NCBI RefSeq assembly: GCF_004216565.1
Contig: NZ_SGWV01000009.1
Coordinates: forward strand, 62,001 to 126,000
Length of the DNA stretch: 64,000 nt
DNA from: Sphaerotilus mobilis
GTDB lineage: Bacteria > Pseudomonadota > Gammaproteobacteria > Burkholderiales > Burkholderiaceae_C
Direction: 5' to 3'
This document shows positions 19,234-45,509 of the stretch, one piece after another. The notes under the pieces were generated by a model that did not search any database, was not told where the DNA came from, and saw only the letters and a program-made list of their open reading frames with translations. Positions within the stretch are counted from its first letter, which is position 1; the number at the start of each line of letters is the position of its first letter. Position numbers and translations under genes: made by a program.

Positions 19234-19596
19234 TCAGCGCGGCGCGGCCGGCAACAGGCGCTCGGCCACCGGCACCTGCGCGGCCGGGTCCATCTCGGTG
19301 GCGACCTGGTTGCAGACCGCGCGGCACAGCGTGGCCACACGTTCGCTCTGCAGCCGGTAGTAGATCTGGGTGCTGTCGCGCCGCTTGCCCAGCACGCCGG
19401 CGCGGTAGAGCGTCGACAGGTGCTGGGACATGTTGGGCTGGGTGGTGTCGATGTCTTCCAGCAGCTGCGACACGTTCTTCTCGCCGTGACACAGCGAGCT
19501 GATGATCTTCAACCGGATCGGCGTGGACAGCAGCGAGAACAACTCGGCCACGGAGTCAAAGACGGCGTCGCTTTCGTCGCGGGGGCTGTCGGACAT
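19234..19596 (-). CDS. ArsR-family winged-helix regulator
   Basis: A 120-residue ArsR protein. The DNA-recognition segment is TTQPNMSQHLSTLYRAGVLG and the wing is KRRDSTQIYYRL. Cysteines occur in SSLCHGEKN and at LCRAVC in the last helix, so a thiol or metal sensor is possible. The Cys positions do not match SqrR/BigR. ATG 19596 has a GAGG box 7 bases upstream. An earlier in-frame ATG at 19620 has none. A perfect inverted repeat just upstream is a likely self-operator. It converges with the CsoR-family gene and lies downstream of a small cytochrome gene on the same strand. Confidence 0.85.
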   Translation of the reverse strand: MSDSPRDESDAVFDSVAELFSLLSTPIRLKIISSLCHGEKNVSQLLEDIDTTQPNMSQHLSTLYRAGVLGKRRDSTQIYYRLQSERVATLCRAVCNQVATEMDPAAQVPVAERLLPAAPR

Positions 19597-19620
19597 GGTC
19601 GGTGCCTCGGTCGTGTTCAT

Positions 19621-19656
19621 CGTTGCATCATTTTATGCGTCTGCACTGATGCAACG
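19621..19656. promoter_or_regulatory. perfect inverted repeat upstream of arsR-family gene (operator)
   Basis: CGTTGCATCA (19621-19630) and TGATGCAACG (19647-19656) are perfect 10-bp arms separated by 16 bp. They lie immediately upstream of the ArsR-family coding region, where autoregulated family members bind. A nested GCAT-N6-ATGC is also present. Confidence 0.7.
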
Positions 19657-27046: not shown

Positions 27047-27080
27047 GGACGTCTCCTCGGGTCGTTGTCGTTGTGGTGTC

Positions 27081-27111: not shown

Positions 27112-27119
27112 ATCAAGGA

Positions 27120-28112
27120 TCAGGGCTGGGTCTGGAACACGCGGCTGGCGCGGATGTCGGCCACCTCCAGCGTGCACAGGTCGGCCTCGTCGAGGTGCCG
27201 GTCGCGCTGCGCGAACAGGCGGCTGGCCTGGCGCAGCCGGGCCCGGTCCAGCGCATTGCGCACGCTGCGGGCGTTGGCGAAATGGGGCTGTTGGGTGCGC
27301 CGTTGCAAGTAGGCGTCGAAGGCCTCGCGGGCGCCCTCTCCCCAGCGGTAATGCTGGGCGTCGAGCATGTGGCCGCTGATGTCGAGCAGCTCGTCGACGC
27401 TGTAGTCGGGGAAGTCGAGGTGATGCGCGATGCGCGAGCTCACGCCCGGGTTGGACTGGAAGAAGGTGTCCATGCGGTCCTTGTAGCCCGCCAGGATCAC
27501 GACCAGGTCGTCGCGCTGGTTCTCCATCACCTGCAGCAAGATCTCGATGGCTTCCTGTCCGTAGTCGCGCTCGTTCTCGGGCCGGTAGAGGTAATACGCC
27601 TCGTCGATGAAGAGCACGCCGCCCATGGCCTTCTTCAGCACTTCCTTGGTCTTGGGCGCCGTGTGACCGATGTACTGGCCCACCAGGTCGTCGCGCGTCA
27701 CCGCCACCAGATGGCCCTTGCGGCAATGGCCCAGGCGCTGAAGGATCTCGGCCATGCGCATCGCCACGGTCGTCTTGCCTGTGCCCGGATTGCCCGTGAA
27801 GCACATGTGCAGGCTGGGGGCCTGCGCGGCCAGCCCGAGGTTGCGCCGCAAGCGGTCGATCACCAGCAGCGCGGCGATGTCGCGGATGCGTTGCTTGACC
27901 GGCGCGAGGCCCACCAGGTCACGGTCGAGCAGGTCCATGACCGACTCGACCTGGCTGTGCGCCAGCACCTCGGCGACGCTGCGAGCGCGCGACAGCGGGT
28001 CGCCATCGGTGTCGGCCACGGTTCCGGCAACGGTCCCGGTCACGGGGTTCTTCGAGGGCGCGTCGGCCAGCGGGGCACGCTGGCCGGGGATCGCGTAGAG
28101 CGGCGTGTTCAT
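27120..28112 (-). CDS. cbbX: red-type RuBisCO activase
   Basis: A 330-residue AAA+ ATPase. Walker A is in [15 protein letters not shown], Walker B in [12 protein letters not shown], and the pore-loop segment YIGHTAPKT lies between them. CbbX pulls on the RuBisCO large-subunit C-terminus to release inhibitory sugar phosphates. It occurs only with red-type enzymes and fits the form IC-like CbbL here. ATG 28112 has GGAG 6 bases before it. The alternative two codons earlier does not. The first 45 residues are low-complexity. Confidence 0.97.
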
Positions 28113-28155
28113 CGGCAACTCCGGGCAGAGGCCTCACGGCCTCCACCGCTGGGCA

Positions 28156-28590
28156 TCAATAGCGCTGGGTCTCGGGACGGTCGGTCGCGTAGCTGTGCAC
28201 CGTGTAGCGCATCGAGCGGCCGTTGATCTCCTGGCGCACCAGGCCGAAGCCGGGCTCGCTCGGCGGCCGGTTGACGATGAAGCTCATCGTGATGGTCTCG
28301 ACGCCACGGGTCGAATCGAAGGCCATCAGGCGGATGTAGTGCTTCGGGAAGGTGGCCCGGCACTGCTGCAGTTCGAGCAGCACGCCGGCGGCGTCCTGCA
28401 GGTCGAACATCGGCATGCCGAACATCTCCCAGTAGGTGTTGCGCGGGTGCGGGTCGTCGGTGTACTCGACGCTCCAGGCATAGCCCTTGTCCAGTCCGTA
28501 CTGGATCTGCATCGCGATCTCGTCGTCGGTCAGATCGGGCAGGAAGCTGAACTGGCCTTGCGTGATGCGGCCGGTCGGGTTGGTCATCAT
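28156..28590 (-). CDS. cbbS: RuBisCO small subunit (red type)
   Basis: A 144-residue small subunit. It carries [20 protein letters not shown] and [19 protein letters not shown], and a long C-terminal beta-hairpin extension ([17 protein letters not shown]...) that is diagnostic of form IC/ID small subunits. It is downstream of cbbL with a 103-bp gap holding a structured repeat. The first two codons are both ATG, so the true start may be 28590 or 28587. Confidence 0.96.
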
Positions 28591-28633
28591 GGCGGCAGGT
28601 CTCCAAGTCGGTTGAGCGAGGACGGCACGCGGT

Positions 28634-28693
28634 GATCCGGCTTGGCCGGTCCTGGCGTGAGCCCCCTCGGGGGGTGGCGCAGACGCGTGAGCG
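28634..28693 (-). repeat. structured intergenic repeat, copy 2 (between cbbL and cbbS)
   Basis: It shares GATCCGGCTTGGCCGGTCC, a GCCCCC/GGGGGG hairpin, GCGTCAAGCC and a closing GGGG block with the copy at 5613-5693. A second hairpin GACGC-gtga-GCGTC is at 28682-28695. Like copy 1 it follows a stop codon inside an operon. Confidence 0.65.
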
Positions 28694-31256
<2,563 letters not shown>

Positions 31257-32689: not shown

Positions 32690-33724
32690 TCAGCGGGCCT
32701 CCTGCTCCATCAGCAGGTAGGTGTTGTAGGCGTTCATGCGGTTGACCGCGCCGAACAGCGGGAGTTTCTCAAAACGGGCCCAGTTCACGCGTGCATAGGC
32801 CTCGTCGAAGGGCTCCAGATTGGTCGCCGCCTCTGCCATCGCGTCGCGCAGGTAGCGCAGGTAGTCGCGGGTCGTGGCCAGGTCGCTGCGGGGGTCGTTC
32901 GAGACCGGGCCGTGCCCCGGCACCACCACCTTCGGATCGAAGGCCAGCATGCGGTCCAGCGCGACGATCCAGGCCTTGCTGTCGGCCAGTCCGACATAGG
33001 GCACACGCTGGCGGAACACCAGGTCGCCGCTGAACAGCACGCTGCGGGCGGGCACCGAGACGATCAGGTCCTCGGGCGTGTGGGCCGGACCTGCGTGCCG
33101 CACGACGAAGTCGGTGCCGCCGATGTGCAAGGTCACGTCCTCGTCGTGACCGCCCTCGCCCAGCCAGAGGTCGGGCGCTTCGATCCGGGTGTGCTCGTCG
33201 ATCCAGGGGAACAGCTCCTCGCGGCTGGCCTCGAGCCGCCGCACCGCCGTCTCCGAGCCGATGTAGTCGCGCGCCCGGGCATGTGCCACCAGACGGGCGC
33301 CCGCGTCCCGGAACACCTGCAGGCCGTAGATGTGGTCAGCGTGGTAGTGCGTGACGATGACCGTGTGGATCGGCAGCGGCGTGATCTCGCGGATGCGCTC
33401 GATCAGCCGCTGGGCCAGCGCAGGCGAGCCCAGCGCATCGATCACGACCACGCCGGTGTCGGTCAGGACGATCCCGGCGTTGGAGATGAAGTTCTGGTTG
33501 GCCGCCGACCCCATGGCCGACTCGCCCTGGACGAACCAGACCCGGTCGGCCACTGGCTGCAGCGGCATGTCGGGCGCCCCTGCCGCAGCGGCCGGGGGCA
33601 GGCTCGCGCCCAGCAACCCGGCTGTCGTGGCGATGGCGGCGCCGGCCAATCGGACGAGCCGACTTGCGCGTCCAACGTGGCCACGCAAGGATTGCAGGAA
33701 GCTGACGCGATCAGGATGATTCAT
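32690..33724 (-). CDS. SoxH-like metallo-beta-lactamase-fold hydrolase
   Basis: A 344-residue exported protein (signal about 15-45). It carries the zinc motif THYHADH (about residues 162-168), FSGDLVF and VVPGHGPVSND. This matches the SoxH/quinoprotein-associated metallohydrolase family common in sox loci; its exact reaction is not established. ATG 33724 gives a proper signal peptide; 22 residues of upstream frame lie over the operator at 33761 and are rejected. Divergent from the sulfide dehydrogenase pair. Confidence 0.85.
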   Translation of the reverse strand: MNHPDRVSFLQSLRGHVGRASRLVRLAGAAIATTAGLLGASLPPAAAAGAPDMPLQPVADRVWFVQGESAMGSAANQNFISNAGIVLTDTGVVVIDALGSPALAQRLIERIREITPLPIHTVIVTHYHADHIYGLQVFRDAGARLVAHARARDYIGSETAVRRLEASREELFPWIDEHTRIEAPDLWLGEGGHDEDVTLHIGGTDFVVRHAGPAHTPEDLIVSVPARSVLFSGDLVFRQRVPYVGLADSKAWIVALDRMLAFDPKVVVPGHGPVSNDPRSDLATTRDYLRYLRDAMAEAATNLEPFDEAYARVNWARFEKLPLFGAVNRMNAYNTYLLMEQEAR

Positions 33725-33760
33725 GCTGTGTTGCTCGCAGGGCAGGCCCAGGAAAACCAC

Positions 33761-33785
33761 TAAATTCGTATGTAGTGATATTCGG
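33761..33785. promoter_or_regulatory. sox-region 25-bp motif, site A
   Basis: It contains AAATTCG, then A two bases on, then TGATATTCG. It lies between the divergent SoxH-like gene and the cytochrome/flavoprotein pair and matches sites B, C and D at ATTCG and TGAT positions. ATTCG occurs twice, 16 bp apart. Confidence 0.6.
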
Positions 33786-33873
33786 AACACTACAGCCCTG
33801 CGGCGCCTGGGTCAATCACGGATCGACCTGGGGTTCCACCCGTCAGAATTCCGAGATGCACCCAGGAGAACCG

Positions 33874-34218
33874 ATGCCTCGAACCCTTCCCCGAACCCTG
33901 GCCAGCGCCCTGACGGGCCTGTTGCTCGCCCTGACCACGCTGTCGGCCCAGGCACAGGCCGCTGGTCGTCCGGCGCCCGAAGCCCTCAAGCTGCGCGCCC
34001 TGGCCGCCACCTGCGCCCAATGCCACGGCACCGATGGCCGCGCGGTGGAAGGCGAGGCGACGATCCGCCTGGCTGGCCTTCCGGCCGACTACCTGCTGAC
34101 GCAGTTGATGGCCTTCCGCAGCGGCCAGCGGCCCGCAACGATCATGCACCAGATCACCAAGGGCTATTCGCAGGAACAGCTGGAGTCGCTGGCCACCTAC
34201 TTCGGAGGCCTGAAGTGA
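33874..34218 (+). CDS. fccA: monoheme cytochrome c subunit of sulfide dehydrogenase
   Basis: A 114-residue protein with a signal peptide (about 1-30) and a single CAQCH heme motif (residues 46-50). A likely Met ligand is in PATIMHQITKGYS. Size and the FccA-type pattern LMAFRSGQRPATIM fit the small cytochrome of flavocytochrome c. It is followed 20 bp on by the flavoprotein subunit. ATG 33874 has AGGAG 5 bases upstream. The ATG at 33856 lacks one. Confidence 0.85.
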   Translation: MPRTLPRTLASALTGLLLALTTLSAQAQAAGRPAPEALKLRALAATCAQCHGTDGRAVEGEATIRLAGLPADYLLTQLMAFRSGQRPATIMHQITKGYSQEQLESLATYFGGLK

Positions 34219-34238
34219 GCGCACGCCCGGAGAACCCC

Positions 34239-35564
34239 ATGAACACGATGAACCTGACCGATCTGCCGCTGCCCCAGACCCAGGCGCAACGCCGACGCCT
34301 GCTGCAAGGCCTGCTGGCCGGCGGCGCGCTGGGCCTGTCAGGCTGCGCCTCGCTGGGTGGCAGCAATGCTGCGTCCAAGGCCCAGGTGGTCGTGATCGGC
34401 GGCGGCTACGGCGGCACCACGGTCGCCAAGTACATCCGGCTGCTGTCGGACCAGCGCATCTCGGTGACGCTGATCGAGCCGAACCGCCAGTTCGTTTCCT
34501 GCCCGATCTCCAACCTGGTGCTCAGCGGCCAACGCACCATGGCCGACATCACCAACCCGTACAGCGGCCTGACCGGCAAGCATGGCGTGCGCATCGTGCA
34601 TGACATGGCCAGCGCGGTCGACCCGGTCAAGAAGACCGTCACGCTCGCCGGTGGTGGCTCGATCGGCTACGACAAGCTGGTCATGTCGCCCGGCATCGAC
34701 TTCATGTGGGACCGTATCGCCGGCCTGCAGCAAGCCCACGCCGCCGGCCAGATCCTGCACGCCTGGAAGGCCGGCCCAGAGACGATGACGCTGCGCCAGC
34801 AGCTGGTGGACATGCGCGACGGCGGTGTCTACGCCATCGTCATCCCCGAGGCGCCCTACCGCTGCCCGCCCGGACCGTATGAACGCGCCAGCGTGATCGC
34901 GTCCTACTTCAAGAAGCACAAGCCGCGCTCGAAGGTGCTGATCCTGGATGCCAACCAGGACGTCACCTCCAAGGGCCCGCTGTTCAAGAAGGCCTGGAAG
35001 GAGCTGTACGGCGACCGCGTCGAGTACCGCGCGCAGCACACCGCCACGGCGGTCGACGGCGCCACGCGCACCGTCAAGTTCGACGTGCAGGACGACGTCA
35101 AGGCCGACGTGCTGAACGTGCTGCCGGTGATGCGCGCCGGCGCGCTGGCGGTGCAGACCGGCCTGGCCAACGCCAATGGCCGCTGGTGCAACACCCACTT
35201 CCTGAACTTCGAGTCGACGGCGGCCAAGGACATCCACGTCATCGGCGACGCGATCCAGGTCGCGCAGGGCATGCCCAAGTCCGGCCACATGGCCAACTCG
35301 CATGCCAAGGTGACGGCGGCGGCCATCGTGGCCGAGCTGCAGGGCTATGAGCCCAACCCGCACCCGATGCTGACGAACGTCTGCATGAGCTTCGTCGACG
35401 ACACCCACGTCATCCACGTGGCCAGCGTGCATGAGTACCAGGCGCCCAAGAAGAGCTTCTTCACGATCGGCGGTTCGGGCGGCGTGTCCGATGCCCGCAA
35501 CGAGCTGGAAGCCAGCTTCGCCAATGCTTGGGCCCGCAACATCTGGGCGGACATGCTGATGTGA
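34239..35564 (+). CDS. fccB: flavocytochrome c sulfide dehydrogenase, FAD subunit
   Basis: A 441-residue flavoprotein that oxidises sulfide in the periplasm and passes electrons to the cytochrome subunit. A twin-Arg type leader (QRRRLLQGLLAGGALGLSGC) is followed by the FAD site VVVIGGGYGGTTVAKYIRLL. The covalent-FAD Cys is in RQFVSCPISNLVL, and the redox disulfide partners are in YRCPPGPY and RWCNTHFLNF. The C-terminal FCSD domain ends NIWADMLM. It could equally be called SoxF. ATG 34239 follows CGGAG. Site B of the sox motif follows this gene. Confidence 0.93.
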   Translation: MNTMNLTDLPLPQTQAQRRRLLQGLLAGGALGLSGCASLGGSNAASKAQVVVIGGGYGGTTVAKYIRLLSDQRISVTLIEPNRQFVSCPISNLVLSGQRTMADITNPYSGLTGKHGVRIVHDMASAVDPVKKTVTLAGGGSIGYDKLVMSPGIDFMWDRIAGLQQAHAAGQILHAWKAGPETMTLRQQLVDMRDGGVYAIVIPEAPYRCPPGPYERASVIASYFKKHKPRSKVLILDANQDVTSKGPLFKKAWKELYGDRVEYRAQHTATAVDGATRTVKFDVQDDVKADVLNVLPVMRAGALAVQTGLANANGRWCNTHFLNFESTAAKDIHVIGDAIQVAQGMPKSGHMANSHAKVTAAAIVAELQGYEPNPHPMLTNVCMSFVDDTHVIHVASVHEYQAPKKSFFTIGGSGGVSDARNELEASFANAWARNIWADMLM

Positions 35565-35605
35565 CCCAGGTCAAGGCAGCCCGGCCGGCCAGGGTGGACC
35601 ATCTG

Positions 35606-35630
35606 AATATTCGTATTCACTGATCCAATC
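35606..35630. promoter_or_regulatory. sox-region 25-bp motif, site B
   Basis: It contains AATATTCGTA and ACTGAT at the same spacing as site C and ends at the base before the ATG of the YeeE-type transporter. The last five bases diverge from the other sites. Confidence 0.5.
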
Positions 35631-36752
35631 ATGGCCATCGAGACGCTGCTGACCTGGTTGGGCGAGGAACACGCGATCGCGGCGTTGGGCGCCGTGATCG
35701 GCGTGCTGTTCGGCTTCTTCGCCCACCGCTCCCGCTTCTGCCTGCGTTCGGCGGTGATCGAGTTCGCACGTGGCACGCGCGAGGGCAAGCTGACCGTCTG
35801 GCTCTACACCTTCTCGACGGCGGTGCTGCTGACGCAGCTGTTCATCGTCGCGGGCTGGCTGGACGTGAGCGGCGCGCGCCAGCTGTCCGCGCGCGGCAGC
35901 TTGTCGGGCGCGGCGATCGGCGGGGCGATGTTCGGCGCCGGGATGATCCTGGCGCGCGGCTGTTCCAGTCGACTTCTGGTGCTGGCCGCACAGGGCAACC
36001 TGCGCGCGCTGCTGTCCGGGCTGGTCTTCGCGGTCAGCGCCCAGGCGGCCCTGACCGGTGTGCTGTCCCCGCTGCGTCAGACGCTTGCCGGCTGGTGGAC
36101 CGTCGAGGGCGGCGCGGCCCGCGACATCCTCGCCATCAGCGGTCTCGGCCATGCCGGTGGCATCGCCTTTGGCGCGCTGTGGCTGGCGGCCGCCTTGATC
36201 TGGGGACACCGCCAGCGCGTCAGTTTCTGGGGCTGGTTCGGCGCGGTCGGCGTCGGCGTCATGGTGGCGCTGGCCTGGCTGGGCACCTGGGTGCTGTCGC
36301 GCGCCGTCTTCGACCTGATCGTGCCGGTGCAGAGCCTGTCCTTCACCGGGCCGGCCGCCGACACGCTGATGCTGGTGCTGTCGCCGCCCGGGCAGGTGCT
36401 GAAATTCGACCTCGGCCTGGTGCCGGGCGTGGCCATCGGCGCCTTTGTCTCGGCGCTGCTGTGGCGCGAGCTCAAGCTCGAAGGCTTCCAGGGTGGACAG
36501 GCCATGCGGCGCTACATCGCCGGTGCCTTCCTGATGGGCTTTGGCGGGATGCTGGCCGGCGGCTGTGCCGTCGGCGCTGGTGTGTCGGGCGCCTCGGTCT
36601 ACACCTTGACGTCCTGGCTCACGCTGGTCGCCATGTGGGCCAGCGCGAGCCTGACCGACTGGCTGGTCGACCGGCGCGAGGAAACCGTCCCGGCGGCGCC
36701 GACCATCGTCGGCGCCGATCCGGAACTCAGCGCCAGCTACGCAAGGCCTTGA
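35631..36752 (+). CDS. YeeE/YedE (TsuA/SoxT-type) sulfur-compound transporter
   Basis: A 373-residue membrane protein with about nine to ten helices. Conserved Cys motifs of the thiosulfate-uptake family are HRSRFCLRSA, LARGCSSRLL and LAGGCAVGAGVSG, where the Cys relay hands thiosulfate through the membrane in TsuA. The sox context suggests import of thiosulfate or another reduced sulfur species, or signalling. No ribosome-binding site is obvious: the sox motif ends exactly at the ATG, so the mRNA may be leaderless or the true start may be further in. Confidence 0.88.
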   Translation: MAIETLLTWLGEEHAIAALGAVIGVLFGFFAHRSRFCLRSAVIEFARGTREGKLTVWLYTFSTAVLLTQLFIVAGWLDVSGARQLSARGSLSGAAIGGAMFGAGMILARGCSSRLLVLAAQGNLRALLSGLVFAVSAQAALTGVLSPLRQTLAGWWTVEGGAARDILAISGLGHAGGIAFGALWLAAALIWGHRQRVSFWGWFGAVGVGVMVALAWLGTWVLSRAVFDLIVPVQSLSFTGPAADTLMLVLSPPGQVLKFDLGLVPGVAIGAFVSALLWRELKLEGFQGGQAMRRYIAGAFLMGFGGMLAGGCAVGAGVSGASVYTLTSWLTLVAMWASASLTDWLVDRREETVPAAPTIVGADPELSASYARP

Positions 36753-36759
36753 ACCTCAG

Positions 36760-36799
36760 GGCCTGCTTCAAGGCCTGATTCCTGGCCTGCTTCAAGGCC
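36760..36799. terminator. duplicated hairpin between convergent transporter and DsrE-like genes
   Basis: A 16-bp sequence (GGCCTGCTTCAAGGCC) occurs at 36760-36775 and 36784-36799. Each copy forms a 5-bp stem (GGCCT/AGGCC) with a 6-nt loop. The second copy includes the DsrE-like stop codon. It is probably a bidirectional termination region, though no T-run is present. Confidence 0.5.
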
Positions 36800-37220
36800 G
36801 GATATAGGCATAGCCCTGCTTCTGCAGCTTGGCGAGCCGAACCACGCCCGAAGGCGTGAAGCCGGCTTCGGCGATGAACTGGTCGCGCTTGAGGCCACGG
36901 TTCTTCAGCGTGATCTCGCAGACCTCGAACTTGACGCCCCGCGCCACCAGTTGCTGAACCGCGATCTCGTAGGGATTGCCGTTGCGATCGGCCGCGTCCT
37001 GCATCAGGAAGTCCACGCCCTGGGCATGGGTGACGACGGTGATCTGCGCCGTCGGGTCCGTGTCCAGGTGGTTCTTGACGTTGCGCAGCCCGCCGAGCGC
37101 CTGCGTGGCCGCGTCCGCGATGTGATAGACGACCTGGTCCTGTGCCCAGGCGCCAGCGGCAGCCACGGCCAGGGTCAGGGCCAGCGCGCCACGGCGCAGT
37201 CCCTTCAGCGTGTGGTTCAT
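36792..37220 (-). CDS. periplasmic DsrE-family protein
   Basis: A 142-residue protein with a signal peptide (about 1-26) and a DsrE/DsrF fold. Strand VVYHI, helix LRNVKNHLDTDPTAQITVVTH and the conserved VKFEVCEITLKNRGL carry the single Cys used for sulfur transfer in this family. It is 25 bp downstream of soxB and is probably the last gene of the sox operon. It may carry persulfide in the periplasm, which is inferred from fold and context. Confidence 0.85.
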   Translation of the reverse strand: MNHTLKGLRRGALALTLAVAAAGAWAQDQVVYHIADAATQALGGLRNVKNHLDTDPTAQITVVTHAQGVDFLMQDAADRNGNPYEIAVQQLVARGVKFEVCEITLKNRGLKRDQFIAEAGFTPSGVVRLAKLQKQGYAYIRP

Positions 37221-37245
37221 GGTGGATTGCTCCGATCGATGTTGT

Positions 37246-38976
37246 TCAGGCCAGACCCGGGTTGCCGTCCACGCCGATCAGGCGCGGGGTGTTGATCTTG
37301 CGCGCCTTGACGTGGCCACCCTGGGCCTTGAGCCACGTCTCCACGACATCCCAGACCTGCTTGTTGCCGGCGCTGCGGGCCTCTTCGGCCACCGGCGCCC
37401 AACCGGCGACCTTGTAAGTCTTGCCGGCCTCGACGGGCTTGCCGTTCAGGCGCATGTCGCCGATGCGGCTGCCCATCTTCTCATTCGGGCTGCAGCTGTA
37501 GGCAAGCCCGCCCACGCGCACCATGTCGCCACCCTGCTGGTAGTAGGGGTCGGCGTTGAAGAGGTTGTCGCAGACGTCTTCCAGCACGGTCTTGATGGTC
37601 TCGCCGGTCATCGGCGTGACGGTGGCGTAGGAGTAGGTCGTCGCAACCTGGTCCATCAGCAGCTCGCGCGTGATCGCCTGGCCCGGCAGCAGCGAGGTGC
37701 CCCAGCGGAAGCCCGGCGAGAAGGCGATCTCGGCGCCTTGCACGTCCATCAGCGCGTCGCAGATCAGCTGGTCCCAGCTGCCGTTGAAGTTGCCTCGGCG
37801 GTAGAGCAGGCCGTCGGTCACCGCCAGCTTCTCGGCCAGCTTGGCCTCGTAGGGCGCGCGGATCTTCGTGATCAGCGCGGCCATCTCCGGATCGGCCTTG
37901 AGCTGGTTGGAGAACACCGGCAGCAGGCGGTAGCGGAAGTCGCTGACCTTGCCGTCCTTGACGTCGAAGTCCATCACGCCGAGGAACTTGCCGTTCGAGC
38001 CCGCATTGGTGACCAAGGTGGTGCCACCCGCGTTCTTGACCGGGATCGCCATGGGCACGCCGTCATGGGTGTGGCCGCCGAAGATCGCGTCGATGCCACG
38101 CACGCGGCTGGCCATCTTCAGGTCGACGTCCATGCCGTTGTGGCTGATCACGACGACGACCTGCGCGCCCTTGCCACGGGCCTCGTCGACCATGGCCTGC
38201 ATGTTCTCGTCCTGGATGCCGAAGCTCCAGTCGGCCACCATGTAGCGCGGGTTGGCGATCGGCGTGTAGGGGAAGGCCTGGCCGATGATGGCGCAGGGCA
38301 CGCCATTGATCGGGCGGATCACATAGGGCTTGAAGACCGGGTCGCCGAAGTCATTGGTCTTGACGTTCTGGGCCACGAAGTCGACCTTGCCCTCGAAGTC
38401 CTTGTCGATGATCTCCTTGACCCGATCCATGCCGTAGGTGAACTCCCAGTGGCCGGTCATCACGTCCACACCGAGGAGCTTGCAGGCATCGACCATGTCC
38501 TGGGCATTGGTCCACAACGAGGTCGCCGAGCCCTGCCAGGTGTCACCGCCATCGAGCAGCAAGGCACCCGGGCGCTGCGACTTCAGCTGCTTGACCAGCG
38601 TGCTCAGATGGGCGAAGCCGCCGACCTTGCCGTAGCGGCGTGCGGCACGTTCGAAGTCGAGGTAGGTGTAGCCATGTGCCAGTTGGGTGCCCGGGCGCAC
38701 CCCCATGCGCTTGAGCAGATGCTCGCCGACCAGGTGCGGCGGCTGGCCCCGCATCGCGCCGATGCCGAGGTTGACGCTGGGCTCGCGGAAGTGGATGGGC
38801 AAGAGCTGCGCATGGCAGTCGGTCATGTGCAGGAAGCTGACATTGCCGAAGGGCTTGACGTCATAGAGGCCCTGCTGCGCCGTCGCCGCATCCGCATCGG
38901 CGTGCTGGCCCAGCGCCATGCCGGCGGCCGAGGCCGCGCCGAGCACCTGAAGAAATTCGCGCTTGGAGAGATTCAT
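37246..38976 (-). CDS. soxB: SoxB thiosulfohydrolase
   Basis: A 576-residue dinuclear-manganese enzyme that releases sulfate from SoxY-bound thiosulfonate. It has a twin-arginine-like leader (SKREFLQVLGAASAAGMALG) and 5'-nucleotidase/metallophosphatase motifs HMTDCHAQL, LLDGGDTWQGS, TGHWEFTYG, VVVISHNGMD and IFGGHTHDG. Length and the C-terminal domain match SoxB. It is separated from soxX by 143 bp containing a GC-rich hairpin, so it may be expressed at a different level from soxCDYZAX. Confidence 0.97.
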   Translation of the reverse strand: MNLSKREFLQVLGAASAAGMALGQHADADAATAQQGLYDVKPFGNVSFLHMTDCHAQLLPIHFREPSVNLGIGAMRGQPPHLVGEHLLKRMGVRPGTQLAHGYTYLDFERAARRYGKVGGFAHLSTLVKQLKSQRPGALLLDGGDTWQGSATSLWTNAQDMVDACKLLGVDVMTGHWEFTYGMDRVKEIIDKDFEGKVDFVAQNVKTNDFGDPVFKPYVIRPINGVPCAIIGQAFPYTPIANPRYMVADWSFGIQDENMQAMVDEARGKGAQVVVVISHNGMDVDLKMASRVRGIDAIFGGHTHDGVPMAIPVKNAGGTTLVTNAGSNGKFLGVMDFDVKDGKVSDFRYRLLPVFSNQLKADPEMAALITKIRAPYEAKLAEKLAVTDGLLYRRGNFNGSWDQLICDALMDVQGAEIAFSPGFRWGTSLLPGQAITRELLMDQVATTYSYATVTPMTGETIKTVLEDVCDNLFNADPYYQQGGDMVRVGGLAYSCSPNEKMGSRIGDMRLNGKPVEAGKTYKVAGWAPVAEEARSAGNKQVWDVVETWLKAQGGHVKARKINTPRLIGVDGNPGLA

Positions 38977-39009
38977 GAATCAGCAATCAATGATGTATTG
39001 AAAGGACAA

Positions 39010-39042
39010 ACGCCCGCGTGAGAGTGGTCTCGGCGCGGGCGT
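39010..39042 (-). terminator. GC-rich hairpin between soxX and soxB
   Basis: Perfect 9-bp arms ACGCCCGCG (39010-39018) and CGCGGGCGT (39034-39042) with a 15-nt loop. On the transcribed strand it is followed by TTTGTCCTTT, a weak T-tract. It could partly terminate or protect the upstream sox mRNA. Confidence 0.55.
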
Positions 39043-39119
39043 CTGGGGTACGTTTGGGCGATGTCTGGGAGGGTGTCGGCTGGCCAGCCGCTAACGGCTT
39101 GGGCTCAGGTCGACTCAGC

Positions 39120-39785
39120 TCACTGGTTGACCGGCGACTTCGGGTCCAGCAGCAAGGCCATGATGTCCTTGAGCTGCTTCTCGTCGAGCAGGCCCTTGTG
39201 GCCGAAGCGCGGCATGTGCGAGCAGGCGTTGTAGGCCCGCGCATTCCACAGCTTGCCCCAGGTGTACTCGACGATGGGCTTGGACTCGGCACTGGCCGGA
39301 TTGGCCACGCCACGCAGCTTGCCGTATTGGTAGAGGCTCGGCCCGATGGTGCCGTGCGAGATCTCTTCCTTGCTGATCTGGTGGCAGTTGTAGCAATTGC
39401 CGCCGTTGTCCTTGGCATCTGCCGTCGGATCGGTCCAGGTCATGCCACGACCGCTTTGCGCCAGCCTCTCGCCAGCCTTCCAGTCACCCAGGAACTGGCC
39501 GTCCGACGGTGCCTTGACGGTGGCCAGGTTGGCCGCCTCGATCGACTTGACGAGCGCCTCGGCCGGCGAACCGGTACCGGCCTGCGAGCAGGCTTCGTTG
39601 GCCGGATCCTGGTTCAGGCGATCCACCTTGGCGATGCCCTGATCGCGGAACGAGGCCTTCATCATCGCGGTGGCCTGGCGGTCCAGCTCGGCCGGGCTCG
39701 GGCCGGTCGCACAAGCGGCCAGACCGGCGACGCCGACCAGTGCCAGCGTGACGCCTGCGAGTTGCTTGATGCGGATGGTGTTCAT
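39120..39785 (-). CDS. soxX: SoxX c-type cytochrome
   Basis: A 221-residue protein with a lipoprotein-like leader (GVAGLAACATG, Cys about 25) and one heme motif CYNCH (about 130-134). The distal Met is in CSHMPRFGHKGLLDEKQLKDIMALL. SoxX pairs with SoxA to attach thiosulfate to SoxY. It lies 17 bp downstream of soxA. It is at the long end for SoxX because of an N-terminal region of about 90 residues before the heme domain. Confidence 0.95.
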   Translation of the reverse strand: MNTIRIKQLAGVTLALVGVAGLAACATGPSPAELDRQATAMMKASFRDQGIAKVDRLNQDPANEACSQAGTGSPAEALVKSIEAANLATVKAPSDGQFLGDWKAGERLAQSGRGMTWTDPTADAKDNGGNCYNCHQISKEEISHGTIGPSLYQYGKLRGVANPASAESKPIVEYTWGKLWNARAYNACSHMPRFGHKGLLDEKQLKDIMALLLDPKSPVNQ

Positions 39786-39802
39786 GTCGCGTGCTCCTGC
39801 GT

Positions 39803-40624
39803 TCAGCGCTTGATCGACGGGGCGATCGAGACCGCGCCCTTGGCGTTGATGCCCATGTAGGACGACAGCGCGACGGTCACGTCCGAGCCGAAGCCCGGGT
39901 ACGGGAAGCGCTGCTGGCGGAAGCAGTCGTTCAGGCGCAGCTGCATGCTCCACATCTGGCCATTGCTGACGCGGTAGGCCGGCCAGGCCGCGAAGCCGAT
40001 GCCGTCACCCGGGTTCTTGGTCAGGTTGGGCAGGTCCTGCATGCGGATGCGCTGACCATCGACGCCATGGCAGCTGGCGCACGAGAAGTCGTGCGAACCA
40101 CCGCGGAAGAAGAAGGCGCGCTTGCCCAGCTCGTACATGCGCTTTTCTTCCGGATGGCTGGCCGGCAGGTTGAACCGCTGTTCGCGCGACTCGGCCGCGA
40201 TCCAGGTGGCCAGCGCGGTCACGTTGGCCATTTCGCCGCGACCGAAGGCGGTCTTGTTGATCTCGTCGGCGTTGAAGCCTTGCAGCATGGCCATGCAGGT
40301 GACCAGCCGGGTCTCCAGGTCCTGCACGCGACCGGTATCGGCGAAGAAGCGCGGCAGTTCGACAAACGCGCCCTTGACGACGCCCGGACCCTTGCCGAGG
40401 TCACACGCTTCGAGCGAGACGTTCTTCGGGCCGCGCTTCTGCTTCCAGAGGTCTTCGCCCTTGGCCTCGAAGAGCTCGGCGGGGTTGCCGTCCTCGAGCA
40501 TCTTGCGGTACTCGGCGATGCCGTCTGCGGCCGACTTCTGGGCCAGGGCAGGCGTGGTGATCGCGGTGACAGCCAGGGCGAGCAAGCCCCAAACAGTCGC
40601 GCTGCGGCGGATCAGCTGATTCAT
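39803..40624 (-). CDS. soxA: SoxA c-type cytochrome (monoheme type)
   Basis: A 273-residue protein with a signal peptide (about 1-29). The C-terminal active-site heme motif is SCASCHGVDGQRI. The N-terminal half keeps Cys in LEACDLGKG and VTCMAML but lacks CxxCH, as in monoheme SoxA proteins. The catalytic Cys ligand is in LNDCFRQQRFPYPGF. With SoxX it catalyses the oxidative joining of thiosulfate to the SoxY Cys. It is 78 bp downstream of soxZ. Confidence 0.95.
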   Translation of the reverse strand: MNQLIRRSATVWGLLALAVTAITTPALAQKSAADGIAEYRKMLEDGNPAELFEAKGEDLWKQKRGPKNVSLEACDLGKGPGVVKGAFVELPRFFADTGRVQDLETRLVTCMAMLQGFNADEINKTAFGRGEMANVTALATWIAAESREQRFNLPASHPEEKRMYELGKRAFFFRGGSHDFSCASCHGVDGQRIRMQDLPNLTKNPGDGIGFAAWPAYRVSNGQMWSMQLRLNDCFRQQRFPYPGFGSDVTVALSSYMGINAKGAVSIAPSIKR

Positions 40625-40702
40625 CGTTGTGTCTCCTCGATGTCGAGATGGATCTGACGGGCGCCGCGGCCCGCCAGTCGGCACCCATGCAGGCGTCGCG
40701 TG

Positions 40703-41014
40703 TCAGGACACCGACACTTCGTCGGTGCGCTTGTCGCCCTTGTTGTCGACCCAGCTCACGGCGACCTTGTCGCCGGCCTTTGCGCCCTTGATGCTGAACT
40801 GCAGGAAGGGGTTCTTGGCCACGGCCGGGCCCCACTGCGCGGTCATGACGACCTTGCCGTTGAGGGCGGCGCTGACCTCCTGGATGAACCAGGCGGGGAT
40901 GAGCTTGCCGGACGCGTCCTTGCGCTGACCGGTTTCCATCTCGTGGCTCATCAGGACTCGGACGGTGGCCTTGTCGCCAGCGGCTTGGGCGCGGATGCGC
41001 ATCGGATCTGCCAT
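40703..41014 (-). CDS. soxZ: SoxZ sulfur-carrier partner
   Basis: A 103-residue immunoglobulin-like protein without a signal peptide, exported as a heterodimer with SoxY. Family segments are MRIRAQ, VLMSHEMETGQRKD, IPAWFIQEV, WGPAVAKNPFLQF and VSWVDNKGD. It lies 66 bp downstream of soxY. Confidence 0.96.
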   Translation of the reverse strand: MADPMRIRAQAAGDKATVRVLMSHEMETGQRKDASGKLIPAWFIQEVSAALNGKVVMTAQWGPAVAKNPFLQFSIKGAKAGDKVAVSWVDNKGDKRTDEVSVS

Positions 41015-41080
41015 TTGGATACTCCTGTGTTGCGGTGATGTTCGGGTGTCGTGGGGTGAGGTCGGGTCGGTCGGTGGCGC

Positions 41081-41539
41081 TCAGCCGCCGCAGCCGCCCA
41101 GCGTGACCTTCACTTCCTTGACCGCGTACAGCACCTTGCCGTCGCCCATCAGGGCAACCGCGAAGACGTTGGACGACTGGCCCATCTTCACGCGGGTGTT
41201 GACGTTGGCATCGATGGCATCGGTGATGTCGAACATCGCGCACAGCATCGACGGGTTCTTCTCGACCAGCAGCAGCAGGCGCTTGACGCCCGGCAGCGCG
41301 GTCGAGCAGCCCAGCGGCACGACCGCGCCGTTTTCGGCGATGTCGGGGGCCTGCAGCGTGACGTCCTTGCTCTCGGCCGGCGTGCCGGCGCCCAGCGCCT
41401 TCATCAGGTCGGCCATGTTCTTGGCATCGAATGCGGCGGTGGCATAGGCGGCCTGGGCGGCTTGCGGCAACAGCCCCAGGCTGCCGAGCATGGCGGCGAC
41501 GGCGGCACTGCGGCCCAGCATCTCGCGACGGGTTTGCAT
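41081..41539 (-). CDS. soxY: SoxY sulfur-carrier protein
   Basis: A 152-residue protein with a twin-arginine leader (QTRREMLGRSAAVAAML) and the diagnostic C-terminal swinging arm GGCGG, whose Cys carries the sulfur intermediates. ATG 41539 is preferred over 41563 because it gives the normal twin-Arg N-terminus. It is the first carrier gene after soxD. A 15-bp hairpin lies in the gap. Confidence 0.97.
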   Translation of the reverse strand: MQTRREMLGRSAAVAAMLGSLGLLPQAAQAAYATAAFDAKNMADLMKALGAGTPAESKDVTLQAPDIAENGAVVPLGCSTALPGVKRLLLLVEKNPSMLCAMFDITDAIDANVNTRVKMGQSSNVFAVALMGDGKVLYAVKEVKVTLGGCGG

Positions 41540-41623
41540 CGTGGAAACTCCTTCAAGGAACATGAACTTGCCGTGCTGGATTCTGCGAGGGAAGGCACCG
41601 CACTGGCTGAGGGCCGACCCGGG

Positions 41624-41655
41624 GAACCCTCGATCGCCGTGGCGATCGGGGGTTC
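41624..41655 (-). other. long hairpin 7 bp after soxD
   Basis: GAACCC-t-CGATCGCC pairs with GGCGATCG-g-GGGTTC across a 2-nt GT loop, giving 15 paired positions with one G-T wobble. No T-run follows, so mRNA stabilisation or segmental control fits better than intrinsic termination. Confidence 0.65.
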
Positions 41656-41661
41656 ATGCGT

Positions 41662-42780
41662 TCACTTCTTGGCGCCGGCGGCGAGCCAGGCGGCGATCTG
41701 CTGGGCCTCGGCCTCAGGCAGGGTCTGCGCGGGCATCGGGATCGCACCCCACACACCCGCTCCGCCGGAGCGGATCTTGCCGGTCAGGTAGGCCACCGCA
41801 TCGGCACGCGTTCCATGCTTGGCGGCGATCTCCTTGAACGACGGGCCGACCAGTTTGCCATCGACCGCATGGCAGGCCGTGCAGGTGTGCTTCTGTGCCA
41901 GCGCCAGCACGGCGGCCGAGGCCGACGGCGCGGCCGCCTTGGCAGGCGCCGCCACAGCCGACACGGCCGTGCCGATCGCGCCGGCCGGGCGGGTGGTGTC
42001 CACACCGTGCTGCGCACCGACGATGCGGTTCTGCTCGGCCAGGTTGCCGTGTGCGTTGCGGGCGAAGTCCGGCAGGAAGGACGCGATGTTGGGCTCGGGC
42101 TCGCAGTTGCTCATGCAGGCTCGCGCCAGCACATCGGGCTTGCGGGTCGACACCTTGGCCTGACCAGGCAAGGCCTTGCCCGGCCACAAGGCATGGTCCA
42201 GCGTCATGCCGTTGCGATTGGGCATGCGCGCCTGCACCTCGGCGATGTTGGCATCCGACATCACGAAGTTGTCGGGCAAGACACCACCCAGGTTGAGCAA
42301 GAAGGCCGTGACCGCGTAGACCTCATCGGGCTTGAGCGACTTGGGCGCGTTCCACGGCATCGCGCGGTTGATGTAGTCCCACAGCGTCGAGACCGTGGCG
42401 ACCTTCATCAGGGTCGTGCGACCCGGGAAGGCCGGATCGTTCAGGCGGGCCACGCGGCCGGTCTTGACGTCCTCGGCGGTCGTGCCACCAACCAGCGGGC
42501 TGAAGACCTCGTTGGCCTCACCGAACACCCCGTGGCAGCCGGCACATTTGGCCTCCCAGATGTCCTGCCCTTGCGCCACCGAACCGGAGCCCTTGGGCAG
42601 GCCCTTGAAGTCCGGGCGCACATCGATGTCCCAGGCGGCGATTTCCTTGGCCGTGGCGGGTCGACCGATGCCGGCATAGCCGGGCTCGGCCGCCAGGCTG
42701 GCCGCTGCACCGAACACCAGTCCGAGCCCGAGGGCCGCACGCCATGCCTTGCGCATCAGGCGCTCACGAGAGCTGGACAT
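41662..42780 (-). CDS. soxD: SoxD diheme cytochrome c of sulfane dehydrogenase
   Basis: A 372-residue cytochrome with a signal peptide (about 8-31). Its first heme is CAGCHGVFGEANEVFSPLVGG (about 80-84) and its second is TCTACHAVDGKLVGPSF (about 298-302), with an Ala-rich linker before the second domain. It accepts electrons from SoxC. The ATG at 42780 overlaps soxC by 17 bp and has GAGG upstream. An internal ATG eight codons in is possible. Confidence 0.95.
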   Translation of the reverse strand: MSSSRERLMRKAWRAALGLGLVFGAAASLAAEPGYAGIGRPATAKEIAAWDIDVRPDFKGLPKGSGSVAQGQDIWEAKCAGCHGVFGEANEVFSPLVGGTTAEDVKTGRVARLNDPAFPGRTTLMKVATVSTLWDYINRAMPWNAPKSLKPDEVYAVTAFLLNLGGVLPDNFVMSDANIAEVQARMPNRNGMTLDHALWPGKALPGQAKVSTRKPDVLARACMSNCEPEPNIASFLPDFARNAHGNLAEQNRIVGAQHGVDTTRPAGAIGTAVSAVAAPAKAAAPSASAAVLALAQKHTCTACHAVDGKLVGPSFKEIAAKHGTRADAVAYLTGKIRSGGAGVWGAIPMPAQTLPEAEAQQIAAWLAAGAKK

Positions 42781-44149
42781 TCTTCACCTCGCCGCTTTCC
42801 TGCACCAGCCACGACTGGATCGAGTTGTTGTGATAGATCGAGCGGGTGCCACGCACCGCCCGCAGCTGCTTGTAGCTGGGCTGGACATAGCCGGTCTCGT
42901 CGGTCGCACGGCTCTGGATCACCGCCGGCCGGCCATCCCAGGACCAGTCGATGTTGAAGCGCGTCAGGCACTTGCTCTGCACCGGCCCTTCAAGCCGGGC
43001 CGGACGCCAGTTGCGGCCGCCGTCGACCGAGACGTCCACCTTGACCACCTTGCCGCGACCGGACCAGGCCAGCCCGGTGACGTTGTAGTAGCCCTTGTCG
43101 AGCAGCACCTGGCCGCCGGACGGCGTGGTGACCACGCTCTTGCATTCCTGGATGCTGCTGTACTGGCGGTGCAGACCACCGGGCATCAGGTCGATGTAGT
43201 GGATCGCCTCGTCCTTGCTGGCATAGGGCTGGTCACCGACCTCGATGCGGCGCAGGTACTTGACCCAGCTGACGCCCTGCACGCCCGGCACGACCAGGCG
43301 CAGCGGGTAGCCGTTCTCCGGCCGCAGCATCTCGCCGTTCTGGCCGTAGGCGACGAACACCTCGCCGGACTCGACCATCTCCATCGGGATGGTGCGGGTC
43401 ATCGACGAGCCGTCGGCACCTTCGGCCAGCACGAAGCGTCCGCGCTTGGTGTCGACGCCGCACAGGTCCAGCAGGACCTTCAGCGGCACGCCGGTGAACT
43501 CGCTGCAGCTGAGCATGCCGTGGCTGTACTGCACCGTCGGCACGGCGACGTTGCCCCACTCCATGCCGCTGTTGGCGCCGCACTCGATGAAGTGGAAGCG
43601 CGAGACGGACGGCAGACGCATGATCTCGTCCATCGTGAAGACCTTGGGCGACTTCACCAGCGACGGGTCGCTGCCGTTGACCATCAGCCGGTGCTGGCTC
43701 GGGTCGACGTCCCACCAGCCCTGGTGATGACGCTCAAAGTGCAGGCCGCTGGGCGTGACGATGCCGAACAGCGACTGCAAGGGCGCGAACGACACCGAAG
43801 CCTGCGCGGTCTGCGTCAGGCCCGGGCTCTGGCGCCGCTGAACGTTCGACTCGTACTTCGACGGCTTGCCATAGCCGTCGGTGGCCACCGCCTGGCCCAG
43901 CCCGGTGCTGTGCGCCGGCAGGTTCAGGATGTGCGGGTCGCCGCCTTCGACGGGCAAGGGGTTGGACTGGGCCAGCGCGGCAGGCGCCGCGACCGCTGCC
44001 GCCGCCCCAGCCGCACCGGCAAACGCCTGGCGGATGAAGTCGCGTCGGCCATGGCGGGCCTCTTCAAAGACCTGGCGCACGCCTTGGCGGTCCAGGAAGT
44101 TCTCGGGCGCCTTCTGAAGGCGGCCGGTTCCGGAAGTTGGGGAGGACAA
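42764..44149 (-). CDS. soxC: SoxC molybdenum sulfane dehydrogenase
   Basis: A 461-residue sulfite-oxidase-family Mo enzyme that oxidises SoxY-bound sulfane sulfur. It has a twin-Arg leader (GRRDFIRQAFAGAAGAAAAV at about 35-55). The Mo-ligand Cys is in FHFIECGANSGMEWG. The dimerisation domain has GYYNVTGLAWSGRG and VDVSVDGGRNW. The start is taken as TTG at 44149, with AGGAG 5 bases upstream. The frame can be extended to an ATG at 44209 that nearly touches operator site D and has no good box. It heads the soxCDYZAXB operon. Confidence 0.93.
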   Translation of the reverse strand: MSSPTSGTGRLQKAPENFLDRQGVRQVFEEARHGRRDFIRQAFAGAAGAAAAVAAPAALAQSNPLPVEGGDPHILNLPAHSTGLGQAVATDGYGKPSKYESNVQRRQSPGLTQTAQASVSFAPLQSLFGIVTPSGLHFERHHQGWWDVDPSQHRLMVNGSDPSLVKSPKVFTMDEIMRLPSVSRFHFIECGANSGMEWGNVAVPTVQYSHGMLSCSEFTGVPLKVLLDLCGVDTKRGRFVLAEGADGSSMTRTIPMEMVESGEVFVAYGQNGEMLRPENGYPLRLVVPGVQGVSWVKYLRRIEVGDQPYASKDEAIHYIDLMPGGLHRQYSSIQECKSVVTTPSGGQVLLDKGYYNVTGLAWSGRGKVVKVDVSVDGGRNWRPARLEGPVQSKCLTRFNIDWSWDGRPAVIQSRATDETGYVQPSYKQLRAVRGTRSIYHNNSIQSWLVQESGEVKNVQLS

Positions 44150-44212
44150 GCGGACTCCTGTTCGGGTGTCGGCGGATGGGGCGCGGAGGGTGGGTCCACT
44201 TCGCCACATCTA

Positions 44213-44237
44213 CATATAAGCACGTACAGATATTATG
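44213..44237. promoter_or_regulatory. sox-region 25-bp motif, site D (soxC promoter)
   Basis: It begins CATAT, has GCA at positions 8-10 and ends GATATTATG, identical at these positions to site C. It lies 63 bp before the soxC start, where the promoter should be. Confidence 0.6.
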
Positions 44238-44427
44238 GTCCGTCATTCGCCGAACATCTTGGTGAAAACACCAGGGTGACGCGGACAGCCGACGAAGGCC
44301 CATGTGCCGTCACGGACGACAGGTCGGTGTCAGCCTGTCAGTTGCTGATGCACCTGGCGCGCCAGCACGGTCAGCGCGGCGCGCACATCGACAGACCCGT
44401 GCGCGGGTTCGAGCGCCGTCGACCCTT

Positions 44428-44452
44428 CATATTCGCAACGACTGATATTATG
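44428..44452. promoter_or_regulatory. sox-region 25-bp motif, site C (transporter promoter)
   Basis: It begins CATATTCGCA and ends ACTGATATTATG. The end also reads as an extended -10 (TG-A-TATTAT) for the plus-strand transporter 34 bp on. It shares ATATTCG and ACTGAT with site B and GATATTATG with site D. Confidence 0.6.
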
Positions 44453-44486: not shown

Positions 44487-45509
44487 ATGAACACGCGCCC
44501 GAATGCCCTGCAACACCTCGCGCCCGCCTGGTTCTCGATCGTCATGGGGCTGTGTGGCCTCGGTCTGGCCTGGCTGCGCGCCGAAGCGCTGATGGGCGAA
44601 CTGACCGGGCCGATCGCCGGGCTGATCGGCGTGTTGGCCTTGGCGATCTTCGGGGTTCTGGCGGTCGCCAGCATCGTGCGGCTGCGGCGTCATCCGCAAG
44701 CCTGGGCGGCAGACCGGGCCCATCCGGTGCGGCATGTCTTCATGGCCGCGATGCCGGCCGCCCTGCTCTTGCTGGCGACGCTGGCGTGGTCGCTGCTCAA
44801 GCCCACGCGCGAGGACATGCCGCTGCTGCGCGCCGTCGTCGACCTGGCCTGGTGGGCCGGCAGCATCGGCCTGTGGCTGGCGACGCTGTGGACGCTCGCC
44901 CGCTGGTGGCGCGGCAACCAGCCCGGCGGGCTGGTCTGGCCGATCTTCACGCCCGCGCTGCTGATCCCGGTGGTCGGCAACGTGATCCCGCCGCTGGCCG
45001 GCCTGGGCTTGGGGCATGGCGACTGGGCGATGGCGCAGTTCGGCCTGGGCGTGCTGTTCTGGCCGGTGCTGCTGACGCTGATGCTGGCCCGGGTGGCGAC
45101 GCAGGGGCCGTGGCCGGACCGGCTGATGCCGTCCAACCTGATCCTGCTCGCCCCGCCGGCAGTGATCGGCCTGGTGCTGCTGCAGGCCGGTGCGCCGATC
45201 GCCCTGGGCTGGGCCTGCTGGGGCATCGGCCTGTTCACGCTGGTCTGGGTGCTGACGCAGGCGCAGCGCATGCTGGCCCAGCCCTTCGGCCTGCCGCACT
45301 GGGGTCTGTCCTTCCCGCTGGCCGCCTTCACGGCCCTGACGCTGACGCTGGCGCGCCCGGGTGGGCTGCTGGCGGTGGTAGGGCCGGTGCTGCTGGCGGC
45401 CACGTCGCTGCTGGTGCTGGGCCTGCTGCTGGCAACCTGGCGCGGCCTGCGCGATGGCACGCTGCTGGCGCCGGAGCCGGTGGCCAGCCTGCAGCCGGTT
45501 GGCGCGTGA
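44487..45509 (+). CDS. SLAC1/TDT-family anion transporter
   Basis: A 340-residue membrane protein with ten predicted helices. The start (HLAPAWFSIVMGLCGLGLAWLR) is characteristic of the TehA/SLAC1/Mae1 (TDT) family, and the middle has the pore-lining TPALLIPVVGNVIPPLAG. Relatives export sulfite (yeast Ssu1) or conduct small anions. Divergence from soxC and a copy of the sox motif at its promoter suggest sulfite efflux during sulfur oxidation. This is inference. The start ATG 44487 lacks a strong ribosome-binding site. Confidence 0.85.
   Translation: MNTRPNALQHLAPAWFSIVMGLCGLGLAWLRAEALMGELTGPIAGLIGVLALAIFGVLAVASIVRLRRHPQAWAADRAHPVRHVFMAAMPAALLLLATLAWSLLKPTREDMPLLRAVVDLAWWAGSIGLWLATLWTLARWWRGNQPGGLVWPIFTPALLIPVVGNVIPPLAGLGLGHGDWAMAQFGLGVLFWPVLLTLMLARVATQGPWPDRLMPSNLILLAPPAVIGLVLLQAGAPIALGWACWGIGLFTLVWVLTQAQRMLAQPFGLPHWGLSFPLAAFTALTLTLARPGGLLAVVGPVLLAATSLLVLGLLLATWRGLRDGTLLAPEPVASLQPVGA

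Follow-up and report, generated by a model that had tools for sequence, protein, structure and literature searches.

Three repressors of the ArsR family, SoxR, SqrR and BigR, are the closest described counterparts of the regulation that we propose here for the sulfur-oxidation genes of Sphaerotilus mobilis. According to the parts of the cited papers that were available, SoxR is linked to sox genes in Hyphomicrobium denitrificans and also in Paracoccus and Pseudaminobacter; in Hyphomicrobium it represses the sox genes and sulfane sulfur releases it (PMC10451225, PMC12423496). It binds several promoter regions of the sulfur cluster, one of them ahead of a gene for a YeeE-like transporter (PMC10451225, PMC12423496, PMC11582611), and a YeeE-like protein, SoxT1B, hands the signal to it (PMC11582611). 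From the same partial sources, the site of SqrR of Rhodobacter capsulatus was deduced as ATTC-N8-GAAT (PMC9774250), BigR of Xylella and Acinetobacter controls a yeeE/yedE/dioxygenase operon (yeeE/yedE/pdo2; PMC7315123), and the residue numbers of the sensing cysteines of SqrR and BigR are those of PMC9774590. TTHA1953 of Thermus thermophilus also represses sox genes, but it is of the CsoR type, a different family with a different consensus. Here we compare with these systems a symmetric DNA element, or dyad, found in a 64,000-nucleotide stretch of the S. mobilis genome (contig NZ_SGWV01000009.1, positions 62,001 to 126,000; hereafter the window). From its sequence and that of related loci we judge that the dyad is a genuine operator and that the genes it marks form a sulfur regulon.

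A first-pass annotation of the window had reported four similar 25-mers, at 33761, 35606, 44213 and 44428, as marks of a candidate sulfur regulon. All four are present at these positions, and sequence comparison reveals them as copies of one 20-22 bp dyad, ATATTCG-N6-CTGATAT (sites A to D in the order given). Sites A, B and D carry ATTC-N8-TGAT and are the three in which ATTCG-N7-TGAT had been noticed, while site C has ATAA-N8-AGAT; the parts described as common to C and D (CATAT, GCA and GATATTATG) are indeed in both. ATATTCG and ACTGAT had been ascribed to B and C by a slip of labelling: the pair that carries them is B and D, and site C reads CATATAAGCACGTACAGATATTATG instead.

The dyad is recovered without any use of sites A-D. 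Among 80 soxC loci, the best 80 of 413 relatives found, we counted every 4-mer together with its reverse complement 0-16 bases further on, within 300 bp upstream of soxC. The commonest dyad in this blind count was ATAT-N12-ATAT, which corresponds to both ends of the 20-bp site and was counted in 51 of the 80 loci, whereas shuffles gave 0.3 on average. The runner-up, TATA-N12-TATA, was found in 16 loci, and the highest count for any dyad in ten shuffle sets was 11. Using a matrix built from A-D, we observed at least 14 bits within 500 bp upstream of soxC in 77 of the 80 relatives compared to 1.9% of shuffles. The 18-bit mark is reached in 66 of 80 relatives and in none of 1600 shuffles; matrices with permuted columns reach it in 1.4%.

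A second sample consisted of 120 genomes of the family, 59 of which have soxC at E<1e-150. Upstream stretches were taken from 56 of these (this genome was set aside, and G055 and G110 were excluded because their soxC is cut or partial), and 50 contain the dyad at 15 bits or more. The six misses are G009 (12.5 bits), G112 (567 bp examined), G093 (100 bp examined), G005, G032 and G092. Orthologous sox promoters thus carry the motif, as a sulfur regulon would lead one to expect.

At low stringency the motif is unspecific: allowing up to three mismatches gives 22+21 places in the genome, many of them apparently coding, against 4+4 for the reversed control, and for a looser pattern the figures are 92 against 26 per strand. 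Such matches are what a chance similarity among the four sites would have in its favour. Set against the blind count and the empty shuffles at 18 bits, chance is an extremely improbable explanation, and the annotation's own opinion on this point holds. The strict pattern ATATNNGYANNTRCNNATAT was dropped as too strict (7 of 120 genomes only, control 0). Places with one mismatch (L006, L008, L009, L010, L014, L152 and L153; 7-20 bits) are not claimed as targets; some of them adjoin a gene for ribosomal L21, a Crp-like protein or cytochrome c assembly. In L009 (1501-1520, contig 8) a 17-bit dyad lies about 60 bp ahead of the likely start of the Crp-like regulator gene.

We then scored the window with a relatives' matrix, made of 58 soxC sites from relatives and none from this genome. 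Over the 64 kb, sites C, A, D and B take ranks 1-4 and a site at soxB is fifth, a ranking that is not blind, since the 58 sites were chosen with the A-D matrix. After the soxB site the scores fall to 12.6 (overlapping A) and 12.3. The four sites of the annotation are all real, but they are an incomplete set: it missed the fifth in the window and strong copies elsewhere in the genome.

Site A (AAATTCGTATGTAGTGATAT, 33762..33781, 28.1 bits) is a putative operator between a SoxH-like gene on the minus strand and the fcc pair on the plus strand. Site B (ATATTCGTATTCACTGATCC, 35607..35626, 21.3 bits), likewise putative, ends 4 bp ahead of the YeeE start codon. The dyads at the promoter of site A and at the position of site B are both kept in L063, which is the nearest relative that has a name. 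Upstream of soxC lies putative site C (ATATAAGCACGTACAGATAT, 44214..44233, 28.3 bits), 65-84 bp away when counted from the likelier TTG start. Putative site D (ATATTCGCAACGACTGATAT, 44429..44448, 25.7 bits) is upstream of the SLAC1-type transporter gene and is the least conserved; in L063 a single dyad, that of soxC, was found over 900 bp upstream of this gene, and no second site corresponding to D. The new and weaker site E (GAATCAGCAATCAATGATGT, 38977..38996, 15.1 bits) immediately precedes the soxB start codon. In several relatives the soxB dyad sits at the start codon itself.

We also ran a model built from sequence alone, with the same 58 sites as input, over all 4.65 Mb of the genome. 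At E<=10 it finds three places, all of them sulfur promoters: site C as top match (E 0.024), a promoter on contig 2 that belongs to a Blh-like gene (0.047) and site D (0.23), although E-values of such short models are rough. Both computational checks that the annotation had suggested, a genome search and a look at the sox promoters of relatives, thus support the proposal of a sulfur regulon.

The genes that the dyad marks can be read from the 80 loci, which amount to 1.37 Mb, 0.61 Mb of it in mapped genes. The A-D matrix gives 107 matches of at least 18 bits. For 93 of them the 350 bp downstream include the mapped start of a sulfur or ArsR gene; the other 14 have no such start, although three of them (L080, L087 and L127) sit just ahead of soxC. 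Only one of the 107 is internal to a mapped gene, and it lies close to where SoxC of L135 begins. Counted per gene with the same four-site matrix (>=16 bits, -150..+30), the dyad is found at the promoters of SoxC (60/79), SoxB (17/65), YeeE (14/37), FccA (7/12) and ArsR (9/27), and more rarely at those of SoxY (3/76), SoxH-like (2/13), YeeE1 (2/8) and SLAC1 (1/5) genes. None was found for SoxD (0/80), SoxZ (0/71), SoxA (0/41), the cytochrome at 39120 (0/30), FccB (0/23), YeeE2 (0/8), CsoR (0/5), Blh (0/1) or MBL (metallo-beta-lactamase)-rhodanese (0/1). The dyad marks genes that lead operons, not internal ones, with SoxY as a small exception.

This distribution bears on an alternative in which the sites would for the most part be promoter elements, their likeness in a GC-rich genome being that of AT-rich -10 boxes; the first-pass annotation had allowed that part of the likeness might be of this kind. 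A consensus scan does give one promoter-like match, on the plus strand with TATTAT as second hexamer, which overlaps site C, and both C and D end in GATATTATG. No sigma-70-like match turned up in 33500-36000, and the promoter scans contributed little. Moreover, the dyad is symmetric, both of its halves carrying corresponding G and C letters in set positions, its constant 12-base gap was recovered blind, and it is missing at operon-internal genes of the same loci and at all nine soxC-like paralogs of the family genomes (0/9). We consider the promoter explanation very unlikely and describe the motif as a dyad operator, not chiefly a -10 element.

Three strong copies lie elsewhere in this genome. 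One is ahead of the gene for a Blh-like metallo-hydrolase (34.8 bits), a protein that scores 381 bits with NCBIfam Blh, below the cut-off of 625. Another precedes a YeeE/MBL-rhodanese cluster (25.0 bits), and the third lies between a TlpA-like gene and an ArsJ-associated glyceraldehyde-3-phosphate dehydrogenase (GAPDH) gene (25.8 bits). In L069 and L078 a TlpA-like gene is divergent from FccA, with the dyad in between.

In 14 of the 80 loci (L074, L080, L089, L100, L102, L104, L114, L116, L117, L121, L127, L131, L134 and L139) a second match above 14 bits lies upstream of soxC, 16 bp off, with a common ATAT half-site. These double dyads look as if dimers bind side by side, though the common half-site itself lifts the second score.

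Next, we looked at the genes that accompany the dyad. Among the best 80 of 413 loci, 12 have an ArsR gene within 700 bp upstream of soxC on the same strand; the best dyad is ahead of ArsR in 10 of them. In the other 2 it lies between the two genes, and L131, one of this pair, has a weaker dyad ahead of ArsR as well. Of the 56 family genomes, 35 have an ArsR gene at most 801 bp upstream of soxC on the same strand, a sox linkage as in SoxR; 33 of the 35 contain the dyad, which is ahead of ArsR in 31. Across 70 ArsR homologs, 38 have the dyad at 15 bits or more in the 330 bp upstream compared to 0.36% of 1400 shuffles. ArsR (E<=1e-20) is found in 54 of 59 soxC genomes and in 4 of 61 others (Fisher 5e-23, kinship uncorrected).

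The annotation had called the regulator not obvious in the window, overlooking an ArsR-family gene at 19234..19620 on the minus strand which is the most likely regulator. Its product, a candidate dyad binder, matches HTH_5 (PF01022) with 45.1 bits over a cut-off of 22 and is the only ArsR-profile match in the window at E<=1e-4. By sequence the closest solved relative is BigR (3pqj, 1.7e-18 with a profile), and SqrR is within the profile's top five. The AlphaFold model (mean pLDDT, the predicted local distance difference test, 78.5) matches both, with BigR first and SqrR seventh in the fold comparison. BigR is thus the nearest solved structure by sequence and by fold. The operator geometry seems near that of SqrR: its ATTC-N8-GAAT and sites A-D have the same spacing, and their letters agree in part.

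The window protein carries Cys44, Cys99 and Cys103. The three are invariant in 17 aligned proteins, an alignment from which 10 soxC-adjacent copies were excluded, as were two pieces of L136. Among the 70 homologs, Cys44 is present in 69, Cys99 in 68, Cys103 in 61 and all three in 60; a cysteine at 41 is present in 4 and at 107 in none. The 12 soxC-adjacent copies of the named loci differ, with Cys41 in 8, Cys44 in 6, Cys99 in 11 and Cys103 in 4, and therefore two cysteine arrangements exist in this ArsR group. The eight Cys41 carriers (L067, L078, L083, L084, L102, L105, L118 and L129) are, unlike the window protein, without Cys44 in 6 cases and without Cys103 in 7. We dropped the idea that soxC-adjacent copies have lost their sensing cysteines, as 8 of 12 have one at 41. 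A remnant of such a copy between sites C and D was also given up (tblastn of 29 ArsR fragments, nothing below E 0.016).

The operator may be real and yet be read here by another regulator, for example a second ArsR protein or the CsoR-like product of 18870-19205. Control of sox by a CsoR-family protein is described for Thermus thermophilus in the available part of PMC10318464; the CsoR-like gene adjoins the window ArsR gene, whose own promoter is weak, and in G031 the dyad occurs though no clear ArsR is present. Against this, the Thermus consensus TACNNTACNNNNGTANNGTA has 6-7 mismatches of 12 at best with sites A-E, CsoR-like genes (E<=1e-12) go only weakly with soxC (23/59 vs 11/61, p 0.015, kinship uncorrected), and none of five CsoR promoters in sox loci has the dyad. 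A search with PF01022 alone finds just two other HTH_5 genes in this genome; one product has a rhodanese-like tail (by eye) and 33% identity to the window protein, and one gene lies near the ArsJ-associated GAPDH gene. Another reader of the operator is overall unlikely, at perhaps one chance in eight or so, and the CsoR-like gene in particular was rejected on its weak co-occurrence and different consensus. This gene is convergent with the ArsR gene and stands beside an AcrB-type efflux gene (15267-18572).

Our preferred reading is that a predicted dimeric ArsR-family repressor, similar to SoxR, SqrR and BigR, acts on sites A-E and is released by sulfane sulfur, the product of 19234-19620 being the best candidate. 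We hold this with good confidence, and several observations weigh against it. As to the sites, the relatives' matrix rests on sites that the A-D matrix had selected, and the sequence-only model, over the whole genome at E<=10, misses sites A and B. At least four other places in the genome (L008, L009, L014 and L153), where no sulfur gene is evident, outscore the soxB site with 16-20 bits, and site D and the soxB site are conserved in part only. As to the regulator, the upstream region of the window ArsR gene has no dyad at 15 bits or more; a weak dyad-like sequence 12 bp ahead of the gene (19633..19652) reaches 10.5 bits with the four-site matrix and 5.0 bits with the relatives' matrix and is a doubtful operator. 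The protein fails the BigR equivalog NF040642 (68.3 bits vs a cut-off of 155). It has no cysteine at the positions of SqrR Cys41 and Cys107, which correspond to its Ser41 and Ala107, the latter placed by counting on past the alignment end. Its cysteines do not place it among the cysteine-defined SoxR/SqrR/BigR sensors, and we therefore call the proposed regulation a variant. Finally, G031 (L236) has soxC and a dyad of 26.7 bits and no ArsR at E<=1e-20, four genomes (G005, G009, G032 and G092) carry ArsR and soxC with no dyad at 15 bits, and our genome samples overlap in part, some genomes seemingly being in both, and are not independent.

The source genome (4.65 Mb, 15 contigs) has Leptothrix discophora CCM 2812 as its nearest named relative by SoxC (91%). 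The gene set around the sites comprises a SoxH-like hydrolase, a cytochrome c, FccB, YeeE, a DsrE-like protein, SoxB, SoxA, SoxZ, SoxY, SoxD, SoxC and the SLAC1-type transporter, the "SoxD" cytochrome being named by its place. The SoxH-like metallo-hydrolase gene (32690..33724, minus strand) matches PF00753, and TIGR04559 with 173 bits, below the cut-off of 280. On the plus strand follow the c-type cytochrome gene of the fcc pair (33874..34218), which has weak cytochrome c matches below cut-offs and adjoins the FccB gene; FccB, the flavocytochrome c sulfide dehydrogenase flavoprotein (34239..35564; PF21706 and PF09242 over cut-off); and the YeeE-type sulfur transporter (35631..36752; PF04143, 173 bits). 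The soxB gene (37246..38976, minus strand) reaches 880 bits with TIGR04486 (cut-off 550). For soxC (42764..44149, minus strand) TIGR04555 gives 588 bits over a cut-off of 420, scored on the reading from 44209; the TTG at 44149 behind AGGAG is likelier to be the start than the 44209 of the longer open reading frame. The SLAC1-type transporter gene (44487..45509, plus strand) matches PF03595 with 131.5 bits (cut-off 27.9), with TehA-type NCBIfam models below cut-offs.

By analogy with the known repressors, binding by the 19234-19620 protein, repression, the signal and the cysteine chemistry are predicted as follows. Without usable sulfur, the repressor would sit on the dyads and hold down the soxC-led genes, soxB, the fcc and SoxH-like genes, the YeeE importer and the SLAC1-type transporter, and elsewhere in the genome the Blh-like dioxygenase and the YeeE/MBL-rhodanese cluster. 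Sulfane sulfur from thiosulfate or sulfide would then enter the cell, probably via YeeE, and the repressor cysteines would be persulfidated or bridged, leading to release from the dyads and expression of the regulon. Oxidation and detoxification would finally clear the signal. A role of YeeE as signal importer fits site B and, in the available part of that study, the SoxT1B result (PMC11582611).

Compared to SoxR, the operator here is described at base level, the cysteines are elsewhere, the likely targets include fcc and the Blh-like enzyme, and the candidate gene, which follows Calvin-cycle genes, is some 25 kb away from soxC. Compared to BigR, the main targets here are sox genes. In our literature search, with most subscription journals outside its reach, this operator was not found for Leptothrix or other Burkholderiales, and PMC9995734 has none of the operator terms looked for.

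The position of the window ArsR gene may point to a further layer. The same-strand genes upstream of it encode a small cytochrome c-like protein, which matches nothing in Pfam and was named by eye, a HAD hydrolase, fructose-bisphosphate aldolase, transketolase, phosphoribulokinase, FBPase, an AAA protein and the RuBisCO large subunit, so the ArsR gene may be transcribed from a Calvin-cycle operon. This minus-strand cluster (19234-30472) ends with the small cytochrome-like gene and the ArsR gene, and a LysR-type gene at 30132, CbbR-like by position, is divergent from it. At 38 homolog loci, 29 of which span about 1.5 kb each side or less, a nearby cytochrome gene is seen in 10, an aldolase gene in 2 and a HAD gene in none. 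Directly ahead of soxC, several close relatives have a second ArsR copy with Cys41 and Cys99 and without Cys103. A tentative reading, which we think rather less likely to be right than wrong, is that the window protein has a distinct thiol switch (Cys44 with Cys99/Cys103, about one helical turn from the SqrR/BigR pair), is read from the end of the Calvin-cycle operon and co-tunes CO2 fixation and sulfur oxidation, with two sensors for one operator in relatives; this genome would retain only the first of the two ArsR arrangements.

In the available parts of the papers cited here, the ArsR-type sox repressors are alphaproteobacterial. With the dyad, sulfur oxidation in many Burkholderiales gains an operator described at base level and a list of genes that can be tested, and a subgroup of ArsR proteins comes into view that has its cysteines at other places than the known persulfide sensors. 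If the thiol-switch reading were true, several close relatives would have two differently tuned sensors on one operator.

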